Source: a virus
IMG/VR virus record: IMGVR_UViG_3300043395_000088
Coordinates: 1 to 22,488 of that record
Reading direction: 5' to 3' (one strand)
Length of the DNA stretch: 22,488 nucleotides
In this document: piece by piece, positions 6,673-22,488 of the stretch
Numbering within the stretch: the stretch's first letter is position 1
How the letters are laid out: each line of letters opens with the position of its first letter
Program-made: the position numbers and the translations under genes
The notes under the pieces: generated by a model
Databases searched by the model: none
Seen by the model: the letters and a program-made list of their open reading frames with translations, nothing else
What the model was told of the DNA's origin: nothing

Positions 6673-6680
6673 TATTTATA
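6673..6680 (-). promoter_or_regulatory. TATAAATA element, possible late-type promoter (weak)
   Basis: The minus strand reads CTATATAAATAAAGACC across the stop codon of the 322-residue gene, 48 bases before the ATG of the 475-residue gene. TATAAATA equals the T4 late-promoter consensus and also resembles a sigma-70 -10 box. No convincing -35 hexamer is spaced 16-18 bases upstream. The position, in one of the few intergenic gaps and ahead of the ejection genes, is the only other support. Confidence 0.2.
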
Positions 6681-7644
6681 TAGTGTTTGTAGCATCAACT
6701 ATTACAGTGCCTATCTGTCCAAATCCTGTGACACTAATTGGGGCTACTTCTTCAAAGTTATTGGCGTCGCCAGCCGTGGTTAGAGAAGACACGTAAGTAA
6801 GGGTTACAACCGCCGACGGTATGGCTGGATGGGGATATGGGTCTGGCGGGGTGGTAGCAGCTGCTTCGGCATATAAATACACCCCATCGACAGAGGAAGG
6901 GGTAGTCTGATAAGCCTGATCTGTAGCCCAGTAAAGTTTAATTACATCTCCTACATTAGCGTCCACATAAAAGTTACAAGCCCCAATTACATAAGAAAAT
7001 ATACCCGCACTTTTTCTAGCAGGAGTATCAAATCGACTGGCTGTACCCGGCACATCAGTGCTGTTTTTTCTTAGCCAAATAACAGTTTCATGCTCTGCGT
7101 TATCTGTGTTTATAAGCTGGACGCTAAACTGCAAATTGTATAAACCTGCAGTACTGACCGTTATATTCCCAGAGCTATTAGTTATGTTGTTGTTATAGTC
7201 TGTAACGTTCAAAGTGATTTGGGTAACGGTGTTATTTGTAGTCGTTTGATCTTGATTAGACTGAAACGCCCCGTACGGAAAACTTAGCCCTTTGCCCTGT
7301 CCAATAAAACTATTCCCATAGAAATTAGTGCCCATGAAAGAGCCACCGACAAAGTTACCCCCTAGAAAGCCTTTAGACCGAATAAACTCGGACATCATGG
7401 ATGCTACGTTACTATAAGTTGCAGTAAGTGTAGACGTAGCAACGTTCTCAGCGGTCATCACCGTGCCATCAAACTCGCCACCGTAAAAGTTATCCGCCCG
7501 ATAAGACTGAGCTTGGTTAGGGGTTAGAGAATCTAGTTGATTAAAGTAAAGACGCAACGCCCGAATAATATCGGTCATTGTGCGTTGGTCGTACTCCGCA
7601 GTCGGTATAGGTAATGCGGGGGCTTTAAATCTTTCTAATGCCAT
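6676..7644 (-). CDS. Fibre-like virion protein with pentapeptide repeats and C1q-like domain, 322 aa
   Basis: Likely a virion appendage or tail-tip protein. Residues 1-45 form a helical N-terminus (TMTDIIRALRLYFNQLDSL, 22-40) that could attach or trimerise the protein. Residues 93-115 consist of about five tandem F-x-G-x-[NS] units (GNFVG, GSFMG, TNFYG, NSFIG), the hallmark of a short pentapeptide-repeat beta-helix. A weaker pair occurs at NFYGGEFDG (52-60). Residues about 120-265 have the strand pattern of a C1q/TNF-like jelly roll (ITLNVTDYNNNIT, VSTAGLYNLQFSVQL, VGDVIKLYWATD), common in trimeric phage fibres. The last 55 residues are beta-rich. Its ATG overlaps the stop of the gp10-like gene by one base. 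Family naming rests on pattern recognition only. Confidence 0.7.
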   Translation of the reverse strand: MALERFKAPALPIPTAEYDQRTMTDIIRALRLYFNQLDSLTPNQAQSYRADNFYGGEFDGTVMTAENVATSTLTATYSNVASMMSEFIRSKGFLGGNFVGGSFMGTNFYGNSFIGQGKGLSFPYGAFQSNQDQTTTNNTVTQITLNVTDYNNNITNSSGNITVSTAGLYNLQFSVQLINTDNAEHETVIWLRKNSTDVPGTASRFDTPARKSAGIFSYVIGACNFYVDANVGDVIKLYWATDQAYQTTPSSVDGVYLYAEAAATTPPDPYPHPAIPSAVVTLTYVSSLTTAGDANNFEEVAPISVTGFGQIGTVIVDATNTI

Positions 7645-13792: not shown

Positions 13793-13797
13793 CTCCT
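13793..13797 (-). promoter_or_regulatory. Shine-Dalgarno AGGAG overlapping a TAG stop
   Basis: The minus strand reads CTTAGGAGCAATAAATG. The TAG stop of the 424-residue gene is the start of AGGAG, 7 bases before the collar-fibre ATG. The same CTTAGGAGCAA string precedes the start at 17015. Confidence 0.7.
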
Positions 13798-15070
13798 AAG
13801 CCGCTATCGGCGTCCAATTTGGTGTTTGCGAAGTATCAATCAAGCCCCAAACTAACGGTCTAGAGACTCGACCTACTGCACTTACACCCGTTAAGTATAC
13901 GTTAGCATCGCTATTTACAGCAACACTACCCACAGAAACTGTACCTGCTACCCCGGTTACATTTACGGTAGACTTAGCATCAACTTCTACCTCGCCAAGA
14001 CCCATCGTGCCAGCTACGCCGGTCACGTTAACTACTGCTTTTCCTGACACCTGAGCGGTGCCAATTTGCCCTGTTCCAGCTACATTTGTTGGGAAGACAT
14101 TAGCTTTAGCATCTACTTCCTCTTCACCTAATAATGCAGAGGCTTCTACACCGGTTACATTAAAGTTATTAACTGTTCTAGTCGTGACAGTTCCTAAAGA
14201 AACCGTAACATCAAAACCAACTAAAGTTACGTTAGCTTTAGCATCAATTTCTACAGTGCCTTCAAACGCTGGGGCGGCTATACCGGTAACACCATGATTA
14301 GAACCGGCACTAACAGCTACTCCACTTATTTCACCAACCCCTTCTACCCCAATAACATTTACGCCAGCCTTGGCGTCTACTTCTACAGTTCCTACAAATC
14401 CATCGGCTTGTAATCCTACGAGAGTTACTGATTGCGTAGTATTAACTTGTCCAATATTGACAGTAGCAGCTATACCAATTACGCATACTTGGGTAAGTCC
14501 GCCATTCCAAGTGCCTTCACCCCAACCGTATGCACCCCAACCTTCTTCGTCCCCACATCCAACTACGCTAGATAGCAAAGTTGTTCCAACTACACCAGTT
14601 GGTTGTACGTTTCCTTTAGAAGCTACGGTTACTGTGCCAATAGATACAGAAGAATCTACCCCGGTTACGTTTACGTTAGCGTCAGAATCTATCTCTTCTT
14701 CACCAATAGCACCAGTAGCTTGCAGTCCAGTTACAGATATATTGTTATTAGACTGAGGAATTACAGCTCCTACAGTTCCGGACGCTTCAAGTCCAATGAC
14801 AGCGATACCAACGCCGGTTTTAACATCTCCAATAACCCCAGATGCAGATACACCCGTGACGTCTACATTAGCTTTAGCAGCTACAGTTTCAATGCCAATA
14901 GCCCCAGAGGCGGTTACGCCAGTGGGGCTTACATTAGCTAATCCTACTACATCTACAGTTCCAATTGAAGAAGACGAGGCTACCCCTGTTACGTTAACCG
15001 AAACAGAGATAGAACCCTCACCCCAGGCGCCTAGCCCCCAAGCGCCTTCGCCCCAATTGGCTGTTGCCAT
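13796..15070 (-). CDS. Repetitive fibre/adhesin-like virion protein, 424 aa
   Basis: Almost the whole protein (about residues 25-403) is about 17 tandem units of 22 residues. Each begins V-x-V-T-G-V, continues with small residues and I/V-G-x-V/E, and ends near D-A-K-A-N. This pattern of strands and glycine turns suggests a beta-solenoid or repeated hairpins. Two tryptophan/glycine modules break the array: WGEGAWGLGAWGEG at 6-19 and GWGAYGWGEGTWNGG at 177-191. Three units are shorter (18-20 residues). The last unit leads into a unique C-terminus with two Trp (residues 408 and 419). No family is named. Position directly before the collar fibre suggests a tail fibre, whisker or head fibre. The Shine-Dalgarno is weak. 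Composition is low complexity, so domain searches may miss it. Confidence 0.75.
   Translation of the reverse strand: MATANWGEGAWGLGAWGEGSISVSVNVTGVASSSSIGTVDVVGLANVSPTGVTASGAIGIETVAAKANVDVTGVSASGVIGDVKTGVGIAVIGLEASGTVGAVIPQSNNNISVTGLQATGAIGEEEIDSDANVNVTGVDSSVSIGTVTVASKGNVQPTGVVGTTLLSSVVGCGDEEGWGAYGWGEGTWNGGLTQVCVIGIAATVNIGQVNTTQSVTLVGLQADGFVGTVEVDAKAGVNVIGVEGVGEISGVAVSAGSNHGVTGIAAPAFEGTVEIDAKANVTLVGFDVTVSLGTVTTRTVNNFNVTGVEASALLGEEEVDAKANVFPTNVAGTGQIGTAQVSGKAVVNVTGVAGTMGLGEVEVDAKSTVNVTGVAGTVSVGSVAVNSDANVYLTGVSAVGRVSRPLVWGLIDTSQTPNWTPIAA
13862..14998 (-). repeat. Array of about seventeen 66-base coding repeats
   Basis: The DNA encoding the 22-residue units repeats with a 66-base period and keeps recurring strings such as GATGCTAAAG and ACCGGGGTAG-like codon runs, diverged from copy to copy. 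Lengths are multiples of three, so units can be gained or lost without a frameshift. The array is interrupted once, at the tryptophan/glycine module (about 14498-14542). Confidence 0.75.
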
Positions 15071-16539: not shown

Positions 16540-16552
16540 TCGGGTTTACCCT
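16535..16552 (-). repeat. 18-base repeated translation-start element, copy 2
   Basis: Identical to 10136-10153 (AGGGTAAACCCGAATGAA on the minus strand). Here it joins the stop codon of the 88-residue gene to the adaptor ATG. Both genes it starts begin Met-Asn. Confidence 0.65.
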
Positions 16553-16818
16553 TAGCCCATCTTTCCACTAATCTTACGACCTTTAGTAGCCGCACCATAA
16601 CCACGCATCGTGCCAGTGCCATAAGGATTAATGGGTTTGTAATTACCTCTACTAATAGTTCCAACAGACATGTTTATCTGGGTCATTTCTTTAGCACCAG
16701 TCTCATATCCGCTGTAAGTATTAACGTTGGTAGCCTTGCCGTCCATAGTGTGTGGCGCAGCATAGAGCTCAGCAGGGCCGATCTCTTTGCCGCCACGTTT
16801 CATACTAAATTTAGCCAT
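16552..16818 (-). CDS. Small basic protein, 88 aa
   Basis: Not recognised. A basic, glycine-rich, probably disordered protein: MAKFSMKRGGKEIGPAEL at the N-terminus, a Thr/Asn/Tyr-rich centre and a Lys/Arg/Gly-rich C-terminus (GYGAATKGRKISGKMG). KRGGK at 7-11 resembles the KGGK motif of other small proteins in this window. Its ATG overlaps the preceding stop by one base (TAATG). Position among connector genes suggests a virion or assembly component (inference). Confidence 0.65.
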   Translation of the reverse strand: MAKFSMKRGGKEIGPAELYAAPHTMDGKATNVNTYSGYETGAKEMTQINMSVGTISRGNYKPINPYGTGTMRGYGAATKGRKISGKMG

Positions 16819-17015
16819 TATCTGCCCCTTCCAGCTGATTTCTTATATGTAAAAGATGATATACGCTGATTAGCTACTTTGGCTAGTCCACGACCTAATT
16901 TCTTCATCTCAAGGTTAGTTTTACCGCCCTTACGCATCTTCTTAACATCTGCGTCTGGGTGGGCACCTTTGCCTTTAGCCATGTGCTTTTTAAGCATGTC
17001 TTTCATTGTTGCCAT
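16818..17015 (-). CDS. Very small basic protein with KGGK motif, 65 aa
   Basis: About a third of the residues are Lys or Arg. Residues 1-27 are Met/Lys/His/Asp-rich (MKDMLKKHMAKGKGAHPDAD). MRKGGKTNLEMKKLGRGLAK (28-47) followed by VANQR looks like a conserved helix, and the tail is KKSAGRGR. I recall the GRxLAKVANQ pattern from small proteins of aquatic phages, without function. AGGAG at 17021-17025 overlaps the upstream TAG stop and decides the start. Possibly DNA-binding or capsid-internal (inference from charge). Confidence 0.68.
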   Translation of the reverse strand: MATMKDMLKKHMAKGKGAHPDADVKKMRKGGKTNLEMKKLGRGLAKVANQRISSFTYKKSAGRGR

Positions 17016-17023
17016 GTTTGCTC

Positions 17024-17452
17024 CTAAGTTGTCGTTACAGTTACAGAACCCACTGCCCCTGCCATAGTAAGCGTACTAGGGGTTAGCGGATTGTCAATAC
17101 CTCTAGGTCCACCAACGGGGTTCCAGCCCCACTGAATGACCCTACTACCTACAGAAGGGAATCCTAAAGAGTTAATACTTGTATTGTCCTCAATAGAGAT
17201 CTGAAGTCCAGTAGTTCCCGCCTGGTAATACCCTAAATCCGGTCTTGGATCCCGCACTGCTTGTGGGTCGTTGACGGGGTATAGACCTAGCGATAACTGT
17301 GGTTGATCAGGTTCCCAGCATTCTTTGCATACCTTGATATTGACGTTCTTAGTCTTAATGACCAGGGTACGAAGCTCTTTTAATCTAAAGCGAAACCCAC
17401 ATCGGTCGCACTGCGATATGGCTAAGTGACCGGATGTAAATTTAGTAGTCAT
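17024..17452 (-). CDS. Zinc-ribbon virion-associated protein, 142 aa
   Basis: C15-D-R-C18 and C42-K-E-C45 form an N-terminal zinc ribbon with GFRFRLKELRTLVIKTK between them. It is followed by WEPDQPQLSLGLYPVNDPQA (46-65) and RDPRPD, a motif I have the impression of seeing in many aquatic phage contigs beside adaptor genes. The C-terminal half is Gly/Pro/Thr-rich, probably beta or disordered, and ends in VTVTTT. Its ATG overlaps the stop of the 311-residue gene by one base. The constant place next to the connector suggests a structural or assembly role rather than gene regulation (inference). Confidence 0.72.
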   Translation of the reverse strand: MTTKFTSGHLAISQCDRCGFRFRLKELRTLVIKTKNVNIKVCKECWEPDQPQLSLGLYPVNDPQAVRDPRPDLGYYQAGTTGLQISIEDNTSINSLGFPSVGSRVIQWGWNPVGGPRGIDNPLTPSTLTMAGAVGSVTVTTT

Positions 17453-18387
17453 TAGTAGCCTCCGCTACCGATATACGTCTCTCTAGGCACAAAGCGCTGC
17501 GAAGCCTTCTCACGGTCTTCCCCAGCGGCTATATTCCACTGTTCTTCATAGGCTAACTTGAGCATTTCTGTGCGGTTCATGGCATCGGGAATTTTTAAGG
17601 ACAGGTGGTATGCCAATCCTGCAACCAAACATGGAAGAAAACGAAAGGGAATATCTGCTACGTTAGTGCCACCCTCACCCATGTTTTGCACCCTGCGCAT
17701 TCTCCAATACACAAACGTATACGGCGTAGAAGAATCTGGAGCGGGCCAAACATAAATAGCAGGTATGTTGGCTGAGTATATATCTGCACCGGATGTATGC
17801 GATGCTGCAGTAGTATTTGCCTGTCCACGGGTACAGTTCTGTAATTCGTTACCTGAGACGTTGGTATAGCCAATAATCTCAGAATCAATCTTAATAAAAC
17901 CAGCCGCAGCCAAGTTAGCTGCAGAGCTAACTGTAATAGTTGTTGCAGATGCGTTGATCGTAGTAGATAGCGTTGCACCTGCAGGGTTAGTTTGTCCAGA
18001 CTGTCGATTTACCCAGACTTGGATCGGCAACCCGGTAGTCGTCTTATTAGGGATAGCGGCATAAGTAGAAACACTAATACGGCTGATATTAATATCAATT
18101 TGATTAGTTGTATTGTCATTTCTGCGGATCACCTGATCTAGCAAATCAATCGTATCGACCGGCAATGGGTATAACGGATTGTTGTAGACCAGATCAATCT
18201 GCCCCTGCTCAATCGTCCAAAGGTTAATACCACGGTTAGCCCACTCAATGGCTAATAGATTCAAACTTCTACGGGCAGTTCTTAAGTCATAGCCCGTGCG
18301 TAACTCGGAGCCACAGCGCTCAAAAGCTTCCTCGACGATGTCTTTCACCTCGAGATTAAATGTAGATGCTCCAGAAGTATCACTCAT
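17452..18387 (-). CDS. Tail accessory factor / connector protein, P22 gp4-like, with inserted beta domain, 311 aa
   Basis: Predicted head-tail connector protein that completes the portal channel. The N-terminal helices contain VEEAFERCGSEL (18-29) and RTARRSLNLLAIEWANRGIN (36-55), then LWTIEQGQ (56-63). The C-terminal helices contain PFRFLPCLVAGLAYHLSLKI (247-266) and EMLKLAYEEQWNIAAGEDRE (274-293). Together these resemble the helical core of P22 gp4. P22 gp4 is only about 166 residues; the extra length here includes a separate domain at about 138-204 (TINASATTITVSSAA, IDSEIIGYTNVSG, NCTRGQANTTAASHTSGA) that looks like a self-contained beta module inserted between strands. The start has AGGA upstream and overlaps the previous stop (ATGA). 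Confidence 0.7.
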   Translation of the reverse strand: MSDTSGASTFNLEVKDIVEEAFERCGSELRTGYDLRTARRSLNLLAIEWANRGINLWTIEQGQIDLVYNNPLYPLPVDTIDLLDQVIRRNDNTTNQIDINISRISVSTYAAIPNKTTTGLPIQVWVNRQSGQTNPAGATLSTTINASATTITVSSAANLAAAGFIKIDSEIIGYTNVSGNELQNCTRGQANTTAASHTSGADIYSANIPAIYVWPAPDSSTPYTFVYWRMRRVQNMGEGGTNVADIPFRFLPCLVAGLAYHLSLKIPDAMNRTEMLKLAYEEQWNIAAGEDREKASQRFVPRETYIGSGGY

Positions 18388-18635
18388 TTTATTTTCCTGA
18401 AGGGCTTAACTTTCTTTTTAATGGCTTTGGGTTGGGCGACGAATTGTTTGCCAGCAGCTTTTCCTGCTCTCTTAGCTCTTGTTGTAGCTGCGTATTCAGC
18501 AGGAGACAACGCCTTGATTGCTCGCTCTGGTAAATATCTTTCTCCCGTGTCGCTTGAACGCTTCCCAGACTTAGTTCGCCACTTTTGAGCGGACCAAGCC
18601 TTAAGAGAACGCTGACTTTTTGCGAGCCCACTCAC
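18384..18635 (-). CDS. Small highly basic protein, GTG start, 83 aa
   Basis: The start is a GTG at 18635 that overlaps the stop of the upstream gene (GTGA); no ATG fits. Conserved-looking core: AQKWRTKSGKRSSDTGERYL (16-35), then PERAIKALSPAEYAATTRAK (36-55) and a Lys/Arg-rich tail ending KPFRKIK. I recall this 'KWRTKSGK...GERYLP..AIKAL...EYAATTRAKR' module from aquatic phages and some giant viruses, where it carries only a DUF label. It may bind nucleic acid through its basic surface (inference). It is the last of seven consecutive small genes before the connector. Confidence 0.72.
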   Translation of the reverse strand: MSGLAKSQRSLKAWSAQKWRTKSGKRSSDTGERYLPERAIKALSPAEYAATTRAKRAGKAAGKQFVAQPKAIKKKVKPFRKIK

Positions 18636-18901
18636 TTTTTCAACTTGCTCAATGTCTGTGCTAGACGAGCACGTTGCCCCATCTTGCCGGGTTTTTTAGC
18701 AGCTGCAGCCAATTTCTTAGCAGGGATCTTTTCGCCCTTCTTAACGCCCAAAGACTTCTTTAAAGCACCGGGCTTTTTGATTGCAGACTGAATCCACTTG
18801 GCAGAGCCACCCTTTTTAGCATATCCCATCTTATTGCGGACATCTTCGGGAAGCATAGCCAAACCTTTTTGGGTTTTTGGATCTGGTTCTTTAAGTGCCA
18901 T
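18632..18901 (-). CDS. Small basic protein with KKPGAL...KIPAKKL module, 89 aa
   Basis: The N-terminus (LPEDVRNKMGYAKKGGSAK, 17-35) carries YAKKGG. It is followed by WIQSAIKKPGALKKSLGVKK (36-55), then IPAKKLAAAAKKPGKMGQRA (59-78) and RLAQTLSKLKK. The C-terminal 55 residues look like a widespread small module of aquatic phages and giant viruses (W-IQ-AIKKPGAL...GQRARLAxTL); no function is known to me. Strongly positive, with about 20 Lys. It overlaps neighbours on both sides (GTGA and TAATG). Confidence 0.75.
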   Translation of the reverse strand: MALKEPDPKTQKGLAMLPEDVRNKMGYAKKGGSAKWIQSAIKKPGALKKSLGVKKGEKIPAKKLAAAAKKPGKMGQRARLAQTLSKLKK

Positions 18902-19191
18902 TATTTGTATCCTCCGCCTTTCTCTTTATAACGTTTAGCTAAGAGCTGCGCCTTGCGAGCAGACCATTGACCCGCCGCAGTACCATGCGTAGCCGACGCT
19001 TTAATACTATCAAATAAAGCTTTGCGCATACCAGGCTTCGTGTAGTTACCAGCTTTATTAACACTGGAAGTCTTTCCACCTTTTGCATATAGGGCAACGG
19101 GTTCATTACCATCTCGCTTAACAGTCTTGCGAGGCATAGATCTAGGCAACTTCTTAGGGTTTACTATACCCATACCACGGCTCGGTCTCAT
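18901..19191 (-). CDS. Small basic protein with YAKGGK and GQWSARKAQL module, 96 aa
   Basis: LYAKGGKTSS (34-43) is followed by KPGMRKALFDSIKASATHGT (about 52-71) and GQWSARKAQLLAKRYKEKGG (about 74-93). The second half matches, by memory, a short module found in aquatic phages and giant viruses (GQWSARKAQLLAxxYKxxGGGY), where it has only a DUF label. YAKGG is identical to residues 128-132 of the 576-residue virion protein. A second start at Met7 is possible. Its ATG overlaps the upstream stop (ATGA). Role unknown. Confidence 0.72.
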   Translation of the reverse strand: MRPSRGMGIVNPKKLPRSMPRKTVKRDGNEPVALYAKGGKTSSVNKAGNYTKPGMRKALFDSIKASATHGTAAGQWSARKAQLLAKRYKEKGGGYK

Positions 19192-19625
19192 ACTATTCTT
19201 CCTCTAGTTTTACCTCGCTGAGCTATGCCATCGGCACGCTTAGAGGCGGTAGGTGCTTTAACCTTACCACCTTTTTTCATTGGCACAGTATCAGTAGCCT
19301 TTATAGCTGTTTCATAGGTATTTGGCCTAATTCCACGAGTAGACTCACGTTTTATTTCATCTTCAGCAGCTTTAAAAGCTCTTCTGGCTTCGTTTGGAGT
19401 AAATGAAGAATCTTTGCCGTATGTTTTTAAATTGTGATAGTCCGAAGATTTATTTGATTCAATTGCGCTATCAATTTCTTTTTGTCGATCTTCGGGCGTT
19501 TTTGCTTCGGCTATACGTTTATATTGTTTATTTACACGTCTTTCAGAAGCACTAGCAGCAGCATCACGCACACGTTCACGAATTGCTTCATCTTCTTCTC
19601 TTGGGGTGAGAACTTTTTTTGTCAT
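19188..19625 (-). CDS. Helical protein with basic C-terminal tag, copy A, 145 aa
   Basis: Residues 1-115 are charged and helical (EEDEAIRERVRDAAASASERR, SDYHNLKTYGKDSSF, NEARRAFKAAEDEIKRE). Residues 119-145 form a tag identical to that of the next gene: GGKVKAPTASKRADG, then IAQRGKTRGRIV. The bodies of the two proteins are not obviously similar, so the tag has been copied or kept independently. No family is recognised. The likely place is inside the capsid or procapsid, with the tag binding coat protein or DNA (inference). Its ATG overlaps the stop of copy B's gene by 4 bases. Confidence 0.72.
   Translation of the reverse strand: MTKKVLTPREEDEAIRERVRDAAASASERRVNKQYKRIAEAKTPEDRQKEIDSAIESNKSSDYHNLKTYGKDSSFTPNEARRAFKAAEDEIKRESTRGIRPNTYETAIKATDTVPMKKGGKVKAPTASKRADGIAQRGKTRGRIV
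19199..19274 (-). repeat. 76-base duplicated tag-coding segment, copy A
   Basis: Aligns without gaps to 19633-19708 with four mismatches in 76 bases (72/76). All four are silent. It encodes the shared tag at the end of the 145-residue gene. Confidence 0.85.
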
Positions 19626-20053
19626 ACAATCCTTCCTCTAGTCTTACCACGTTGAGCTATGCCATCGGCACGCTTAGAAGCGGTAGGTGCTTTAACCTTA
19701 CCACCTTTACGAAATTCAGGGGTTTTTTTAAGCCCTTTTCCTCCACCACCCAACCCTTTTGGATCGGTTGCAAAGTAGATTGGTCTACCACTACCTACTG
19801 GTTGTTTACCAAGCTCTTTTGCTTTATCCGCACGAAACTGATCACTAATATCCCTAACCGTTTGTTTGGCTTCGTCTACTTTCATTTGATTACGCACGCG
19901 ATCAGCTTCTCGCTCTGTAACGCGTTCTAACGTCTTATCAAATTCAGACGGGGCAAGTTTGATCGGCATTTGTTTCTTAGCCTTTAGGTCTTCTTTACTG
20001 CCAAACCCAAGGTCAAGCTGATCAAGAGGGTTGATCGGAGGTACTTTTGGCAT
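19622..20053 (-). CDS. Helical protein with basic C-terminal tag, copy B, 143 aa
   Basis: Residues 1-85 are charged and helical (SEFDKTLERVTEREADRVRN, KVDEAKQTVRDISDQFRADK). A glycine-rich linker follows (about 99-108, GLGGGGKGLK). The tag at 117-143 is residue-for-residue identical to that of the adjacent 145-residue protein. Upstream of the tag the two proteins share only composition. No homologue is recognised. Helical body plus basic C-terminal tail recalls scaffolding proteins, such as P22 gp8 whose C-terminal basic hairpin binds coat, but the size is small and this is inference. Its ATG overlaps the previous stop by one base. Confidence 0.72.
   Translation of the reverse strand: MPKVPPINPLDQLDLGFGSKEDLKAKKQMPIKLAPSEFDKTLERVTEREADRVRNQMKVDEAKQTVRDISDQFRADKAKELGKQPVGSGRPIYFATDPKGLGGGGKGLKKTPEFRKGGKVKAPTASKRADGIAQRGKTRGRIV
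19633..19708 (-). repeat. 76-base duplicated tag-coding segment, copy B
   Basis: Partner of 19199-19274. Identity starts at the tag's KGGK codons and runs to within two bases of the stop region; sequence before the tag shows no such similarity. Confidence 0.85.
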
Positions 20054-20442
20054 TACTTGCAGGCCTTCCCGCCCATACGCATAGTCACTTGCTTAGCACG
20101 GGTCTTGCCTTTACGGGCAATTCCGTCAGCTTGCTTATGACCAGCAGATAAACCACCAGCAGCCATCTTCTTCATGGTCTTACCACCATGCTTCATGCCA
20201 GCCTCTTTCATCTCATGCTTAATCATAGACTTAGGAGCACCCTTCTTTTTCATGAACGATACTTCCTTCTTCATCATTGCTTTTGACTCTTTCATTTCTC
20301 CACCTTCCTTAAATTTTTTGCCTTTATCGGCAGTTAAAAATTCCTTCCCAACTGAGGAAGGTACACCAACCTTCTTAGCAAACCGTGGGTTATTAGCCAC
20401 GGCTGCCATAAACTTATGCTGTTTTGCGCTGACGCTGGGCAC
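20053..20442 (-). CDS. Lys/Met-rich small protein with tag-like C-terminus, GTG start, 129 aa
   Basis: The start is a GTG at 20442 giving MPSVSAKQHKFMAAVANNPR, then FAKKVGVPSSVGKEFLTADKG. This opening looks like small aquatic phage proteins that begin P-x-VS-KQ-xF. An internal ATG at codon 12 would lose it. GGGG lies just upstream. Residues 45-95 are Lys/Met-rich helices with KEGGE and KHGGK. ADGIARKGKTRAK (105-117) is a diverged form of the tag on the two following genes. The C-terminus adds TMRMGGKACK. The 5' end overlaps the upstream gene by 29 bases. Function unknown; probably virion-internal or DNA-binding (inference). Confidence 0.72.
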   Translation of the reverse strand: MPSVSAKQHKFMAAVANNPRFAKKVGVPSSVGKEFLTADKGKKFKEGGEMKESKAMMKKEVSFMKKKGAPKSMIKHEMKEAGMKHGGKTMKKMAAGGLSAGHKQADGIARKGKTRAKQVTMRMGGKACK

Positions 20443-20689
20443 TTACTTTCCCCTGAATAAGGAGGTCAATCTTACCTTCAAGTTTATTAAACCTTGCGTC
20501 AATATGCTCCATAAGTTTGTCAATTTCTGCTTGAGTGACGTTTTCACGAGCCACCTCCTCACGAGTCTTATTTAACAAAATACCTATTCGATGCAGTTCT
20601 GTGACTTTTTCTCTAGCCCAGAACCCTATGATTGCTATGAGGACAGCTAATCCTACATTCCATAACCATAAATACGTGCTCTCAGTCAT
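20414..20689 (-). CDS. Single-pass membrane protein with coiled coil, 91 aa
   Basis: Residues 7-25 (LWLWNVGLAVLIAIIGFWA) form an N-terminal membrane helix, followed by a charged helical region with heptad spacing (EIDKLMEHIDARFNKLEGKI, about 55-74) and a basic tail. The topology resembles the 86-residue protein in the lysis cluster, but the sequence is unrelated by eye. Finding a membrane protein inside the capsid-proximal cluster is unusual; it may act in lysis, in superinfection exclusion, or be packaged. The ATG at 20689 overlaps the preceding stop (ATGA). Confidence 0.68.
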   Translation of the reverse strand: MTESTYLWLWNVGLAVLIAIIGFWAREKVTELHRIGILLNKTREEVARENVTQAEIDKLMEHIDARFNKLEGKIDLLIQGKVSAQRQRKTA

Positions 20690-21006
20690 ACCATCTTCCC
20701 TTTGGTTTTGCCCCGGATTTCACATCCGCCACCACGAACTTTTCCACCAGTCTTGCAGTTCCAAGCACGCAAAGACTTATTAATCCGTGAGTTTGGGTCG
20801 TTGGCTGTTTTAGCTGAAGTAAGTTTCTTTTTCATGCCCTTCATGCGGGCACAGAAAGAATCTCGGCGTGAGCCGCCTTCTGGCTGCGGGCGTTTAAGCC
20901 CAGGCTTACCAGGATTGGCAGCATTGTAAGAAGCCCTACCTTTGGCGTTTAAGCCGCCGCTAGGGTTCTTACCTTCTTTACGTTGCCACGCAGGGGTCTT
21001 AGCCAT
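20686..21006 (-). CDS. Small basic protein, WQRKEGKNPSGGLNAKGR-type module, 106 aa
   Basis: The motif TPAWQRKEGKNPSGGLNAKG (4-23) followed by RASYN, SFCARMKGMKKKLTSAKTAN (50-69), then DPNSRINKSLRAWNC (70-84) looks like a small module widespread in phages and some giant viruses that, as far as I know, has only a DUF label. Cys52 and Cys84 are positioned to pair or bind metal with Cys95. The C-terminus GGKVRGGGCEIRGKTKGKMV (87-106) is a variant of the tag on nearby proteins. It overlaps the upstream gene by 8 bases. Function not known. Confidence 0.75.
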   Translation of the reverse strand: MAKTPAWQRKEGKNPSGGLNAKGRASYNAANPGKPGLKRPQPEGGSRRDSFCARMKGMKKKLTSAKTANDPNSRINKSLRAWNCKTGGKVRGGGCEIRGKTKGKMV

Positions 21007-21475
21007 AAAAAATACTCAAACGGCAGTTAGAAGCTAGGAAGACACGAATGCCGTCTCGAGCTAAAACACCTTCACCGGGAATAAGCACGTTAGTTACGAC
21101 CTGAATATCCGTATCAATCTCAAATAGCACATCGTTGTATACGGTTACGTTACCACTAGCACCGCCAGAATCAGCGACTGTTACAGTAAACGTATTTGCG
21201 TTTGCAACGGTTTGCACAGTATACGGGCCGTCAGTTAAGTCCCAATCAAGATATACACGATCACCAGCATCCAGTTGATGATTAACTGCGGTGATTGTTG
21301 CTACTGTAGTAACTCGTGCGTATGTCCCGCTAATACTAGCGTTATTTACAAGCGTGGAGGTTGAATCCGCACCCGTTTGTGGCATCGTGACAAGACCTTT
21401 TAGGCGTGTACGATAGTTAACCATCACACCGGAGTCATCACGGTGTGTTGACTTTACGTCATATTGCATTGCCAT
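20999..21475 (-). CDS. Beta-rich head protein, 158 aa
   Basis: Predicted virion protein. Residues 1-48 are an N-terminal arm (MAMQYDVKSTHRDDSGVMVN). Residues about 50-112 form a Thr/Val-rich beta module with HQLDAGDRVYLDWDLTDGPY (66-85), then TVQTVANANTFTVTVADSGG. The last 40 residues (LIPGEGVLARDGIRVFL...) contain more strands. The central GD-x-V ... GxYxV ... ANxFxV pattern recalls small beta modules common in aquatic phage structural proteins and resembles the insertion in the gp10-like protein. A strong AGGAGG at 21481-21486 fixes the start. Two genes after the capsid gene, it may be a decoration or head-completion protein (inference). Confidence 0.68.
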   Translation of the reverse strand: MAMQYDVKSTHRDDSGVMVNYRTRLKGLVTMPQTGADSTSTLVNNASISGTYARVTTVATITAVNHQLDAGDRVYLDWDLTDGPYTVQTVANANTFTVTVADSGGASGNVTVYNDVLFEIDTDIQVVTNVLIPGEGVLARDGIRVFLASNCRLSIFYG

Positions 21476-21488
21476 AGCGGCCTCCTAA

Positions 21489-21944
21489 TTAAGCAACTAG
21501 GTTATTAGCTTGCAAATAGACAATAGTAACAGTCGCGGCTCCTGTGCCATCTCCATCGGTAGCTGTGAAATAAGCGTTTACTTGTAAGTCAGTAGAGCCT
21601 ATATCAGTAGCTTGAACTTCTAACGCTGGAGCGTGCGTTGTAGCAACTGCTTTAGCATTGGTAGACGTTAAAAAAGCGTTCGTGTTACCGGTGTATCCAA
21701 CAGTAACCGTAGCTGCGTTTGTATCGGTGCTGCCGGTAGTTACGTTCAAAATACAATCAATAATCTGTGAATTGGCAGGAACAACAGCAACAGCCGTGTT
21801 CGCAGAAGTGCCAGAAATATCAATAACGGCAGACTGAGCCATTACTACGTAACCAACGTTAGTTACATTAGTACCAACAGTGGTACCGGTGGTATTAAAA
21901 ATGTTACCGGCTCTAATTGGGCCGGAGAAGGTAGTTGTACCCAT
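21489..21944 (-). CDS. Putative head decoration protein, 151 aa
   Basis: First gene after the capsid gene. The N-terminus TTFSGPIRAGNIFNTTGTTV (3-22) is followed by a beta-sandwich-like body: NVGYVVMAQSAVIDISG, VAVVPANSQIIDCILNVTTG (52-71), then VTVGYTGNTNAFL and VTIVYLQANN at the end. This FSGP(I/V)RAG...PANSQIIDxxLxVTT order looks like abundant structural proteins of aquatic phages; the fold is compatible with a jelly-roll decoration protein. GAGGA lies upstream of the ATG. The role is inferred from position and strand pattern. Confidence 0.7.
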   Translation of the reverse strand: MGTTTFSGPIRAGNIFNTTGTTVGTNVTNVGYVVMAQSAVIDISGTSANTAVAVVPANSQIIDCILNVTTGSTDTNAATVTVGYTGNTNAFLTSTNAKAVATTHAPALEVQATDIGSTDLQVNAYFTATDGDGTGAATVTIVYLQANNLVA

Positions 21945-22082: not shown

Positions 22083-22488
22083 TTAGGCTGCTCCGGGTGA
22101 TCCAAAGGCACCTAATGGATCTGACCAACCGAACGAATAACGCTCACGTGCTTTGTAGCGAACGTTACCAGTATCGAAGTCACCATCCATTGAGTTGCTC
22201 AAAGGAGTACGGACAAAATGCTTCAAGCCGTTTGGAACATCGGTGGTCAAGAACCATGCGTTGTTATCGGTCAGGTAGTGGTTAACAGTGTAACCGCCTG
22301 GGATAGAACCATTGTTCTTCAATGCGTTGATGTCGTTATCAGCAGTACCAACACGAAGTTCTGTTTCGAGGATACGGGTTGCAACGAACATTAATGAAGG
22401 TGGAACCACCAATTTGGTAGGACGAGCAGCGATCAAAAGACCACGTTCGTCTGTCCAAGCAGCGATCTGAATAACGGCGGCTTCCAAG
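22083..22488 (-). CDS. Major capsid protein, C-terminal fragment (runs off window)
   Basis: An open frame from the window edge to a TAA at 22083; the true start is beyond the right end. The leftmost possible start in this frame is an internal TTG (Leu), so it should not be used as a start. The visible ~135 residues include TKLVVPPSLMFVATRILETE, NNGSIPGGYTVNHYLTDNNA and the end RERYSFGWSDPLGAFGSPGA. 'Pro-Pro...FxAxRI' followed by a Trp/Phe-rich Asp-containing strand and a short Gly-Ser-Pro tail matches HK97-fold capsid proteins of aquatic podovirus-type phages by eye. The terminator directly behind it fits a highly expressed coat protein. Confidence 0.8.
   Translation of the reverse strand, partial: LEAAVIQIAAWTDERGLLIAARPTKLVVPPSLMFVATRILETELRVGTADNDINALKNNGSIPGGYTVNHYLTDNNAWFLTTDVPNGLKHFVRTPLSNSMDGDFDTGNVRYKARERYSFGWSDPLGAFGSPGAA

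Follow-up and report, generated by a model that had tools for sequence, protein, structure and literature searches.

A shared terminal peptide on small basic proteins encoded between the capsid and adaptor genes of uncultured tailed phages

Why should a tailed phage attach nearly the same short peptide to several otherwise different proteins encoded close to its capsid gene? The question is raised by the IMG/VR record IMGVR_UViG_3300043395_000088, which was analyzed over its entire length of 22,488 bases (hereafter the window) and is a fragment of a tailed-phage genome with its late genes on the minus strand. Eight minus-strand genes at 18384-21006 encode proteins of 83, 89, 96, 145, 143, 129, 91, and 106 amino acids (aa). 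An original prediction, made from the DNA letters, held that seven of these proteins are short and rich in Lys and Arg, that four end in variants of one peptide (hereafter the tag) behind differing N-terminal parts (the bodies), and that the tag targets interchangeable cargo to the capsid or condenses DNA. We observed the sequence of the tag, its terminal position, its confinement to the interval between capsid and adaptor genes, its conservation at the protein level, and the turnover of the bodies. On balance, we lean towards a terminal head-targeting tag, which would dock changing small basic proteins on a conserved partner and thereby bring them into the head.

Sequence and distribution of the tag

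The 145- and 143-aa proteins are identical over their last 28 residues (KGGKVKAPTASKRADGIAQRGKTRGRIV), and their bodies are unrelated, as predicted. The DNA of the two tags is 93% identical, with six synonymous and no non-synonymous codon differences. In the 129-aa protein, the core is weaker (KQADGIARKGKTRAK; E = 0.02 with a profile of tags) and lies about 25 residues short of the C-terminus; the C-terminus of the 106-aa protein is a degenerate tag (GGKVRGGGCEIRGKTKGKMV). The basic character of the cluster was borne out, with 23-29% Lys+Arg and isoelectric points (pI) of 10.0-11.4 in all of the eight proteins but one, the 91-aa protein (15% Lys+Arg, pI 9.2).

IMG/VR viral contigs were searched with a degenerate DNA pattern of the core DGIAxRGxTxG, ignoring neighboring genes, and at least 120 stretches matched. 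These stretches and 80 adaptor loci (see below) form our samples; they come from one collection, and open reading frames (ORFs) were called mechanically, with uncertain start codons. Among the matches listed, all 157 (the two of the window included) lie in open frames, with a stop 14-34 codons after the D. By chance, the exact pattern would be expected about 5.6 times in 257 Gb (both strands, even base composition). Cellular genomes totaling 257 Gb gave 15 matches, 14 of which are unlike tags, some lying inside long ORFs. The single true tag of this set belongs to a metagenome-assembled genome (L123), where it sits on a contig of 5.9 kb that holds three more. Non-viral occurrence, which the original prediction had raised, is thus minimal: the tag is essentially absent from cellular genomes.

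A profile built from 147 distinct tags gave 205 strong matches, 204 of them ending at most 20 residues from the stop. The expression used for counting tags was widened after the first matches, which affects the set of 453 proteins, the positional counts (283 of 291 and 43 of 46), and the turnover values given below, but not the 157 matches. In 453 distinct tagged proteins, the distance from the D to the end is exactly 14 residues in 240 cases, another number up to 45 in 178, and more than 45 in 35. The last group consists mostly of one family of about 61 aa with the tag at its N-terminus (MAYTRSADGIAKKGKTEGKNLGDSGP...), together with three proteins containing internal copies. Because of this N-terminally tagged family, the signal is to be called terminal rather than strictly C-terminal. 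The final residues of tagged proteins are mostly V, C, I, or L. The phages that carry the tag are uncultured and water-borne, and as a group they are widespread. A tblastn search of 50,697 phage records with the 28-aa tag consensus, a short and low-complexity query, gave no match even at E = 10; the tag profile had no significant match in the PDB, and the string RGKTRG was found in the full-text literature in one unrelated paper only.

Selection acts on the tag as a peptide, with the protein kept and synonymous codons scrambled. For the near-invariant residues D, G, A, G, and T, codon bases 1 and 2 are fixed, whereas base 3 varies, with 1.3-1.9 bits at four-fold sites. Where two tags have the same residue, codon identity was 0.45 within and 0.40 between genomes, compared with 0.34 expected from codon usage. 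Tags within genomes are barely more alike than tags of different genomes (0.671 vs. 0.650, permutation P = 0.026), and recent duplication therefore does not account for most copies, though it may for the pair in the window.

The string GxxxxGK[ST] (Walker A) fits 429 of the 453 distinct tagged proteins, e.g. as GIAQRGKT. A P-loop nucleoside triphosphatase (NTPase) was considered and rejected, as in most cases the chain stops about five residues beyond the T and the motif is not part of a domain, and 106 tagged proteins gave no Pfam NTPase match. Since the motif lies near the chain end, pattern-based nucleotide-binding annotation of these proteins is probably wrong; judging from the motif, a phosphate-contacting role for the GIAQRGKT-type string is possible.

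The capsid-adaptor interval and its changing genes

Gene-order maps revealed a common layout: terminase, portal, GroES-like, scaffold, two small genes, capsid, cement, DUF6321, 91-aa type, 129-aa type, tagged genes, 96-, 83-, and 89-aa types, and adaptor. The capsid matches PF25209 (Phage_capsid_4) and PF10124. Of the 291 tagged ORFs, 283 follow the capsid side, precede the adaptor, or do both, in each case on the same strand. To avoid circularity, a tag-blind sample of loci was also collected through the adaptor gene alone, and those with more than 2.5 kb upstream were taken as informative (n = 46). Upstream tags were present in 43 of them (mean 2.3), all within 2.9 kb of the adaptor and none on the other strand. 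Of the three loci scored as negative, L203 in fact holds tagged genes and was probably miscounted owing to a second adaptor-like match. Downstream, this sample gave 30 matches, all belonging to the N-terminal family, 29 of which sit about 450 bases past the adaptor. Fourteen long records contain 43 tags in one island each, except that two of them have one more tagged gene between the stabilization-protein (stab) and 322-aa genes. Up to five different tagged proteins are encoded per genome. As to whether the tag is always C-terminal and near capsid genes, a check proposed with the original prediction, it is almost always C-terminal, apart from the N-terminal family and the three internal copies, and almost always encoded between the major capsid and adaptor genes of a single phage group.

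Transcription in the window runs from the capsid C-terminus through the cement-like protein (21489-21944), a 158-aa protein (20999-21475), and the eight cluster genes to the adaptor and more structural genes. The locus comprises the following features:

22083-22487, minus strand: major capsid protein, C-terminal part; upstream island border, cut by the contig end
21489-21944, minus strand: cement-like protein encoded beside the capsid; resembles the 'cement protein' of Phage DSL-LC04
20686-21006, minus strand: 106-aa protein, DUF6321 (PF19846) plus degenerate tag
20689-20754, minus strand: degenerate C-terminal tag of the DUF6321 protein, KTGGKVRGGGCEIRGKTKGKMV; predicted disordered
20414-20689, minus strand: 91-aa protein with hydrophobic N-terminus; conserved neighbor without tag
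20053-20442, minus strand: 129-aa protein with N-terminal phrog_16759 domain and the tag near its C-terminus
20098-20157, minus strand: variant tag in the 129-aa protein, GGLSAGHKQADGIARKGKTR, about 14 aa short of the C-terminus
19622-20053, minus strand: 143-aa tagged protein; body resembles one protein in locus L035
19625-19708, minus strand: C-terminal tag of the 143-aa protein; same peptide as the 145-aa tag
19188-19625, minus strand: 145-aa tagged protein whose body has no Pfam or PHROG assignment
19191-19274, minus strand: C-terminal tag of the 145-aa protein, KGGKVKAPTASKRADGIAQRGKTRGRIV
18901-19191, minus strand: 96-aa basic protein (phrog_17747); conserved island neighbor without tag
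18632-18901, minus strand: 89-aa basic protein; conserved island neighbor without tag
18384-18635, minus strand: 83-aa basic protein (phrog_14910); conserved island neighbor without tag
17452-18387, minus strand: head-tail adaptor, downstream island border; its orthologue L147:12546-13481 matches PF24175 (SU10_adaptor)
16818-17015, minus strand: 65-aa basic protein, window copy without tag; relatives of about 61 aa at the same position are N-terminally tagged
16552-16818, minus strand: 88-aa protein; family C-terminus conserved (GIKIRGTGAATKGVMARGPMA), window copy ending MRGYGAATKGRKISGKMG

The phrog_16759 domain is also N-terminal in phrog_22033/25121 'virion structural protein', and over its first 39 residues the 129-aa protein of the window shares 74% identity with PHIKZ165.1 of phiKZ (L142:6001-6177), a small protein of giant Pseudomonas phages. 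A glycosyltransferase-like gene (245-247 aa, recognized by eye) was seen just upstream of DUF6321 at L222:609-1346 and L226:1481-2218, and between the 158-aa type and DUF6321 genes at L147:9386-10129.

Several other termini attracted attention. The 88-aa family, with members in about 30 loci, has a strongly conserved C-terminus that is possibly a second terminal tag; compared with the tag by hhalign (E = 0.008, probability 5%), it may be a distant variant, the match being weak. In the untagged Phage DSL-LC04, a 114-aa protein between the portal and GroES-like genes (L141:7313-7657) ends in YAKGGLVTSKGQGRVIRSKKTRIC, which is tag-like but of other sequence. A 424-aa window protein (13796-15070) is built of NVTGVxAxGxIGxVxV-type repeats, and the 322- and 142-aa window proteins (6676-7644 and 17024-17452) end in a similar motif (ISVTGFGQIGTVIV and MAGAVGSVTV). 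Finally, an RGMG motif starts several small basic proteins (window 18901-19191, MRPSRGMGIVNP; L141:2468-2752, MASRGMGIKT; L141:1315-1542, MAGRGMGCATRGG) and is perhaps a further N-terminal signal.

Turnover of the bodies was assessed by one main definition, i.e. a homologue in the partner locus at E = 1e-3 with half of the query covered. Partners were required to contain DUF6321, which excludes cut islands; some truncation may persist. At adaptor identities of 90-97%, a homologue was found for 17% of the tagged bodies, 99% of DUF6321, 95% of the 96-aa type, 95% of the 83-aa type, 96% of the 142-aa type, 82% of the 129-aa type, and 70% of the 91-aa type; low-complexity bodies are harder to detect, and the 129-aa family, with its similar composition, serves as a rough control. 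Between loci with adaptors 97-100% identical, 56% of the bodies had a homologue, compared with 79% for the 91-aa type and 97-100% for the others. The clearest example is provided by L222 and L226, whose flanks share 96-99% DNA identity and which encode the same adaptor protein. The first tagged genes of these two loci have a common start and identical last 26 residues (KGGSVSSASKRADGCAMRGKTKGRMV), but the bodies are unrelated, and L222 contains two additional tagged genes. Tagged bodies have a median pI of 9.7 without the tag (10.1 for whole tagged proteins), contain no hydrophobic segments, and appear to be of low complexity. Scans of 106 tagged proteins gave only weak matches to Pfam, likely due to chance, and essentially the 129-aa family alone in PHROGs.

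One tagged protein off the main island (261 aa, L145:15926-16711) recalls ADP-ribosyltransferases by eye (LYRGE ... TTNKDYARDYAGG), an assignment that we do not claim; it had no PDB sequence match and no relatives, and its single-sequence model was poor, with a predicted local distance difference test (pLDDT) score of 52.

The tag occurs sporadically on DUF6321. The window's 106-aa protein matches this family with 68.2 bits (curated cut-off 28.5), and its model (pLDDT 57) has three helices and no fold match. Six of its orthologues carry a full tag, and 57 stop untagged at ...WNC. A full-text literature search for 'DUF6321' returned no paper. T4-like cyanophages have DUF6321 as the final module of the head-region protein T4-GC 119, which is annotated as 'structural protein' in S-E7 and 'hypothetical protein' in S-SM1. 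In the examples read, a Glu stands 0-2 residues before DUF6321 (VNE|G, TNE|G, SEE|A, and similar). Prohead proteases cut after Glu (PMC5694885), and the residue is consistent with release of the module by such an enzyme. T4-GC 119 (L158:4959-5240, L159:4959-5240, L160, L161, L163, L164, L165, L167) combines DUF6321 with other small basic Cys-containing modules in one chain, often preceded by Glu as if protease-released; podovirus-like relatives encode similar modules separately. In S-CAM3 and Sf-FR1, DUF6321 stands alone behind a 13-residue leader, MKSFKxLRxDxxE. By eye, this leader looks similar to the capsid targeting sequence (CTS) of T4; if it is CTS-like, one DUF6321 module would reach the head via two different signals.

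Proposed head targeting and the rival explanations

The combination of a constant terminal peptide, changing bodies, and confinement to the head genes argues for a constant partner of the same assembly step. We propose that the tag acts as a short targeting signal at a protein terminus, usually the C-terminus but the N-terminus in one small family. Through it, a changing assortment of late proteins, all small, basic, and largely unstructured, would dock on one conserved partner during head assembly and thus be taken into the head. The tag would be constant because its partner is. As the head proteins are acidic (scaffold pI 5.0-5.2, capsid 5.0, portal 4.8), scaffold, capsid, and portal are each a possible docking site for the basic tag; the likeliest partner would be the capsid inner face or the acidic scaffold, with the portal possible. 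Fast replacement of the bodies would be expected for head-internal proteins that meet host defenses or tune DNA packing. Packaging, the partner, ejection, and the function of the bodies are what we infer. A more speculative extension, which we offer tentatively, is a protease-independent 'barcode' loading: a terminal peptide of about 14-25 residues would admit any fused unstructured basic protein to the head, and bodies would be exchanged by recombination between gene start and tag, giving strain-specific injected anti-host proteins.

With respect to the original prediction, the position, the C-terminal bias, and the near-absence from cells fit capsid targeting, while generic DNA condensation alone is insufficient because D, G, A, G, and T are near-invariant. 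The term 'cargo' is less apt for bodies that are basic and of low complexity, with no recognizable domains and no evident enzymes.

Several points weigh against head targeting. The single tag that was modeled, the degenerate one of the window's DUF6321 protein, is predicted to be disordered and lends no structural support to a partner. The bodies of the 106 tagged proteins scanned have no recognizable domains that would mark them as functional cargo; three proteins carry the tag internally, and two records place a tagged gene also between two other late genes. We found no virion or prohead proteomics for any member of the tagged group, and no cultured phage with the tag. The relatives DSL-LC04, HTVC027P, 023Pt_psg01, ct7L0027, and HTVC033P have no tag, and the tag is therefore a feature of one sub-group; the first three share the head-gene order, so the tag is not required for head assembly as such.

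The tag might instead fix the proteins to the neck or portal vertex (adaptor, portal, needle) and not in the head interior, which would make them connector-associated or ejection proteins. The island borders the adaptor gene, and the additional tagged gene of the two records lies between the stab and 322-aa type genes; however, a single vertex would hardly need up to five tagged proteins per genome, bodies of every kind bear the tag whereas the tail genes do not, and neighborhood alone cannot tell capsid from neck. We regard this location as rather unlikely. A little less likely again is a nucleic-acid-binding tail that neutralizes or condenses packaged DNA with no protein partner. Tails rich in Gly, Arg, and Lys are generally known to bind nucleic acid often, and both the whole tagged proteins and neighbors such as DUF6321 are basic, but the bodies are basic already without the tag, and charge alone needs neither the invariant D, G, A, G, and T nor a fixed distance to the stop.

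Display on the outer capsid surface, in the manner of decoration proteins, would agree with the adjoining capsid and cement genes and with rapid body turnover, which also suits exposed proteins. It is improbable for bodies that look unstructured and strongly basic and have no recognized binding domains, and the tag occurs on DUF6321, which in cyanophages is part of a head-region protein with apparent protease joints. The fixed C-terminal position and the preference for V, C, I, and L as last residues would be compatible with a stability or turnover signal (degron) or a host modification site. C-degrons, however, rely on the last few residues, which are variable here while the inner core is invariant; with N-terminal copies in existence and the restriction to one head-gene interval left unexplained, we consider such a signal very improbable. 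Least probable, and already disfavored, is a DNA-level cassette or recombination element at gene 3' ends, to which the peptide would be incidental. Gene content does change with breakpoints at tags, and the window's two copies are similar in DNA, but amino acids are kept while third codon positions are scrambled, only in-frame copies were seen, and the N-terminal family has the tag at the 5' end of the gene. An integron-like cassette was rejected on the same grounds, as the repeat is not conserved as DNA at gene ends.

If the tag does target proteins to the head, a common C-terminal signal on hypervariable proteins would suggest that terminal head-targeting signals arose independently. The tag would also give a sequence handle for head-internal proteins in metagenomes, where the bodies lack recognizable homologues, and the expected tryptic peptide ADGIAQR makes packaging testable in existing viral-fraction proteomes.

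Comparison with known systems

In T4, a conserved CTS on diverse basic internal proteins loads them into the head, and the CTS alone also loads foreign proteins (PMC3012670, PMC9026906). The phages studied here resemble T4 (IPI, IPII, IPIII, and Alt) in having a constant short terminal sequence on diverse basic proteins that are encoded in the head region and whose bodies vary among relatives. The CTS differs from the tag in being N-terminal, about 10-20 aa long, and removed by the protease gp21, whereas the tag is normally C-terminal and of other sequence. Pfam recognized no prohead protease among the scaffold, hyp57, hyp4560, capsid, and portal proteins of L147, although a divergent one could escape. 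By analogy, the tag appears to work like the T4 CTS but outside that system, in view of the different position and sequence and the lack of a recognized protease.

P22/T7-type scaffold and ejection proteins enter proheads through coat or portal contacts, without proteolysis. Each of these is one conserved protein with its own contact, unlike the common tag on many unrelated bodies. For the giant phages SPN3US and phiKZ, terminal stretches of inner head proteins (propeptides) are a proposed means of directing ejection proteins to the prohead (PMC5694885); they differ from the tag in being N-terminal, often longer than 100 residues, and cleaved after A-X-E. Terminal head-targeting signals are already known in this sense, established in T4 and proposed in giant phages, and they are mainly N-terminal and protease-linked.

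The closest C-terminal analogy appears to be the cargo-loading peptides of encapsulins, which are short, usually C-terminal, and bring different proteins into a shell of the phage capsid fold (cf. the review PMC7355545). Like the encapsulin peptides, the tag is short, C-terminal, and shared by several proteins whose genes lie next to one for a capsid-type shell. Encapsulins, however, are cellular compartments with enzyme cargo, whereas the tag belongs to a tailed-phage head module with several tagged proteins per genome. There the island is bordered by genes for terminase, portal, scaffold, and adaptor, unlike a cellular-compartment operon without packaging genes.

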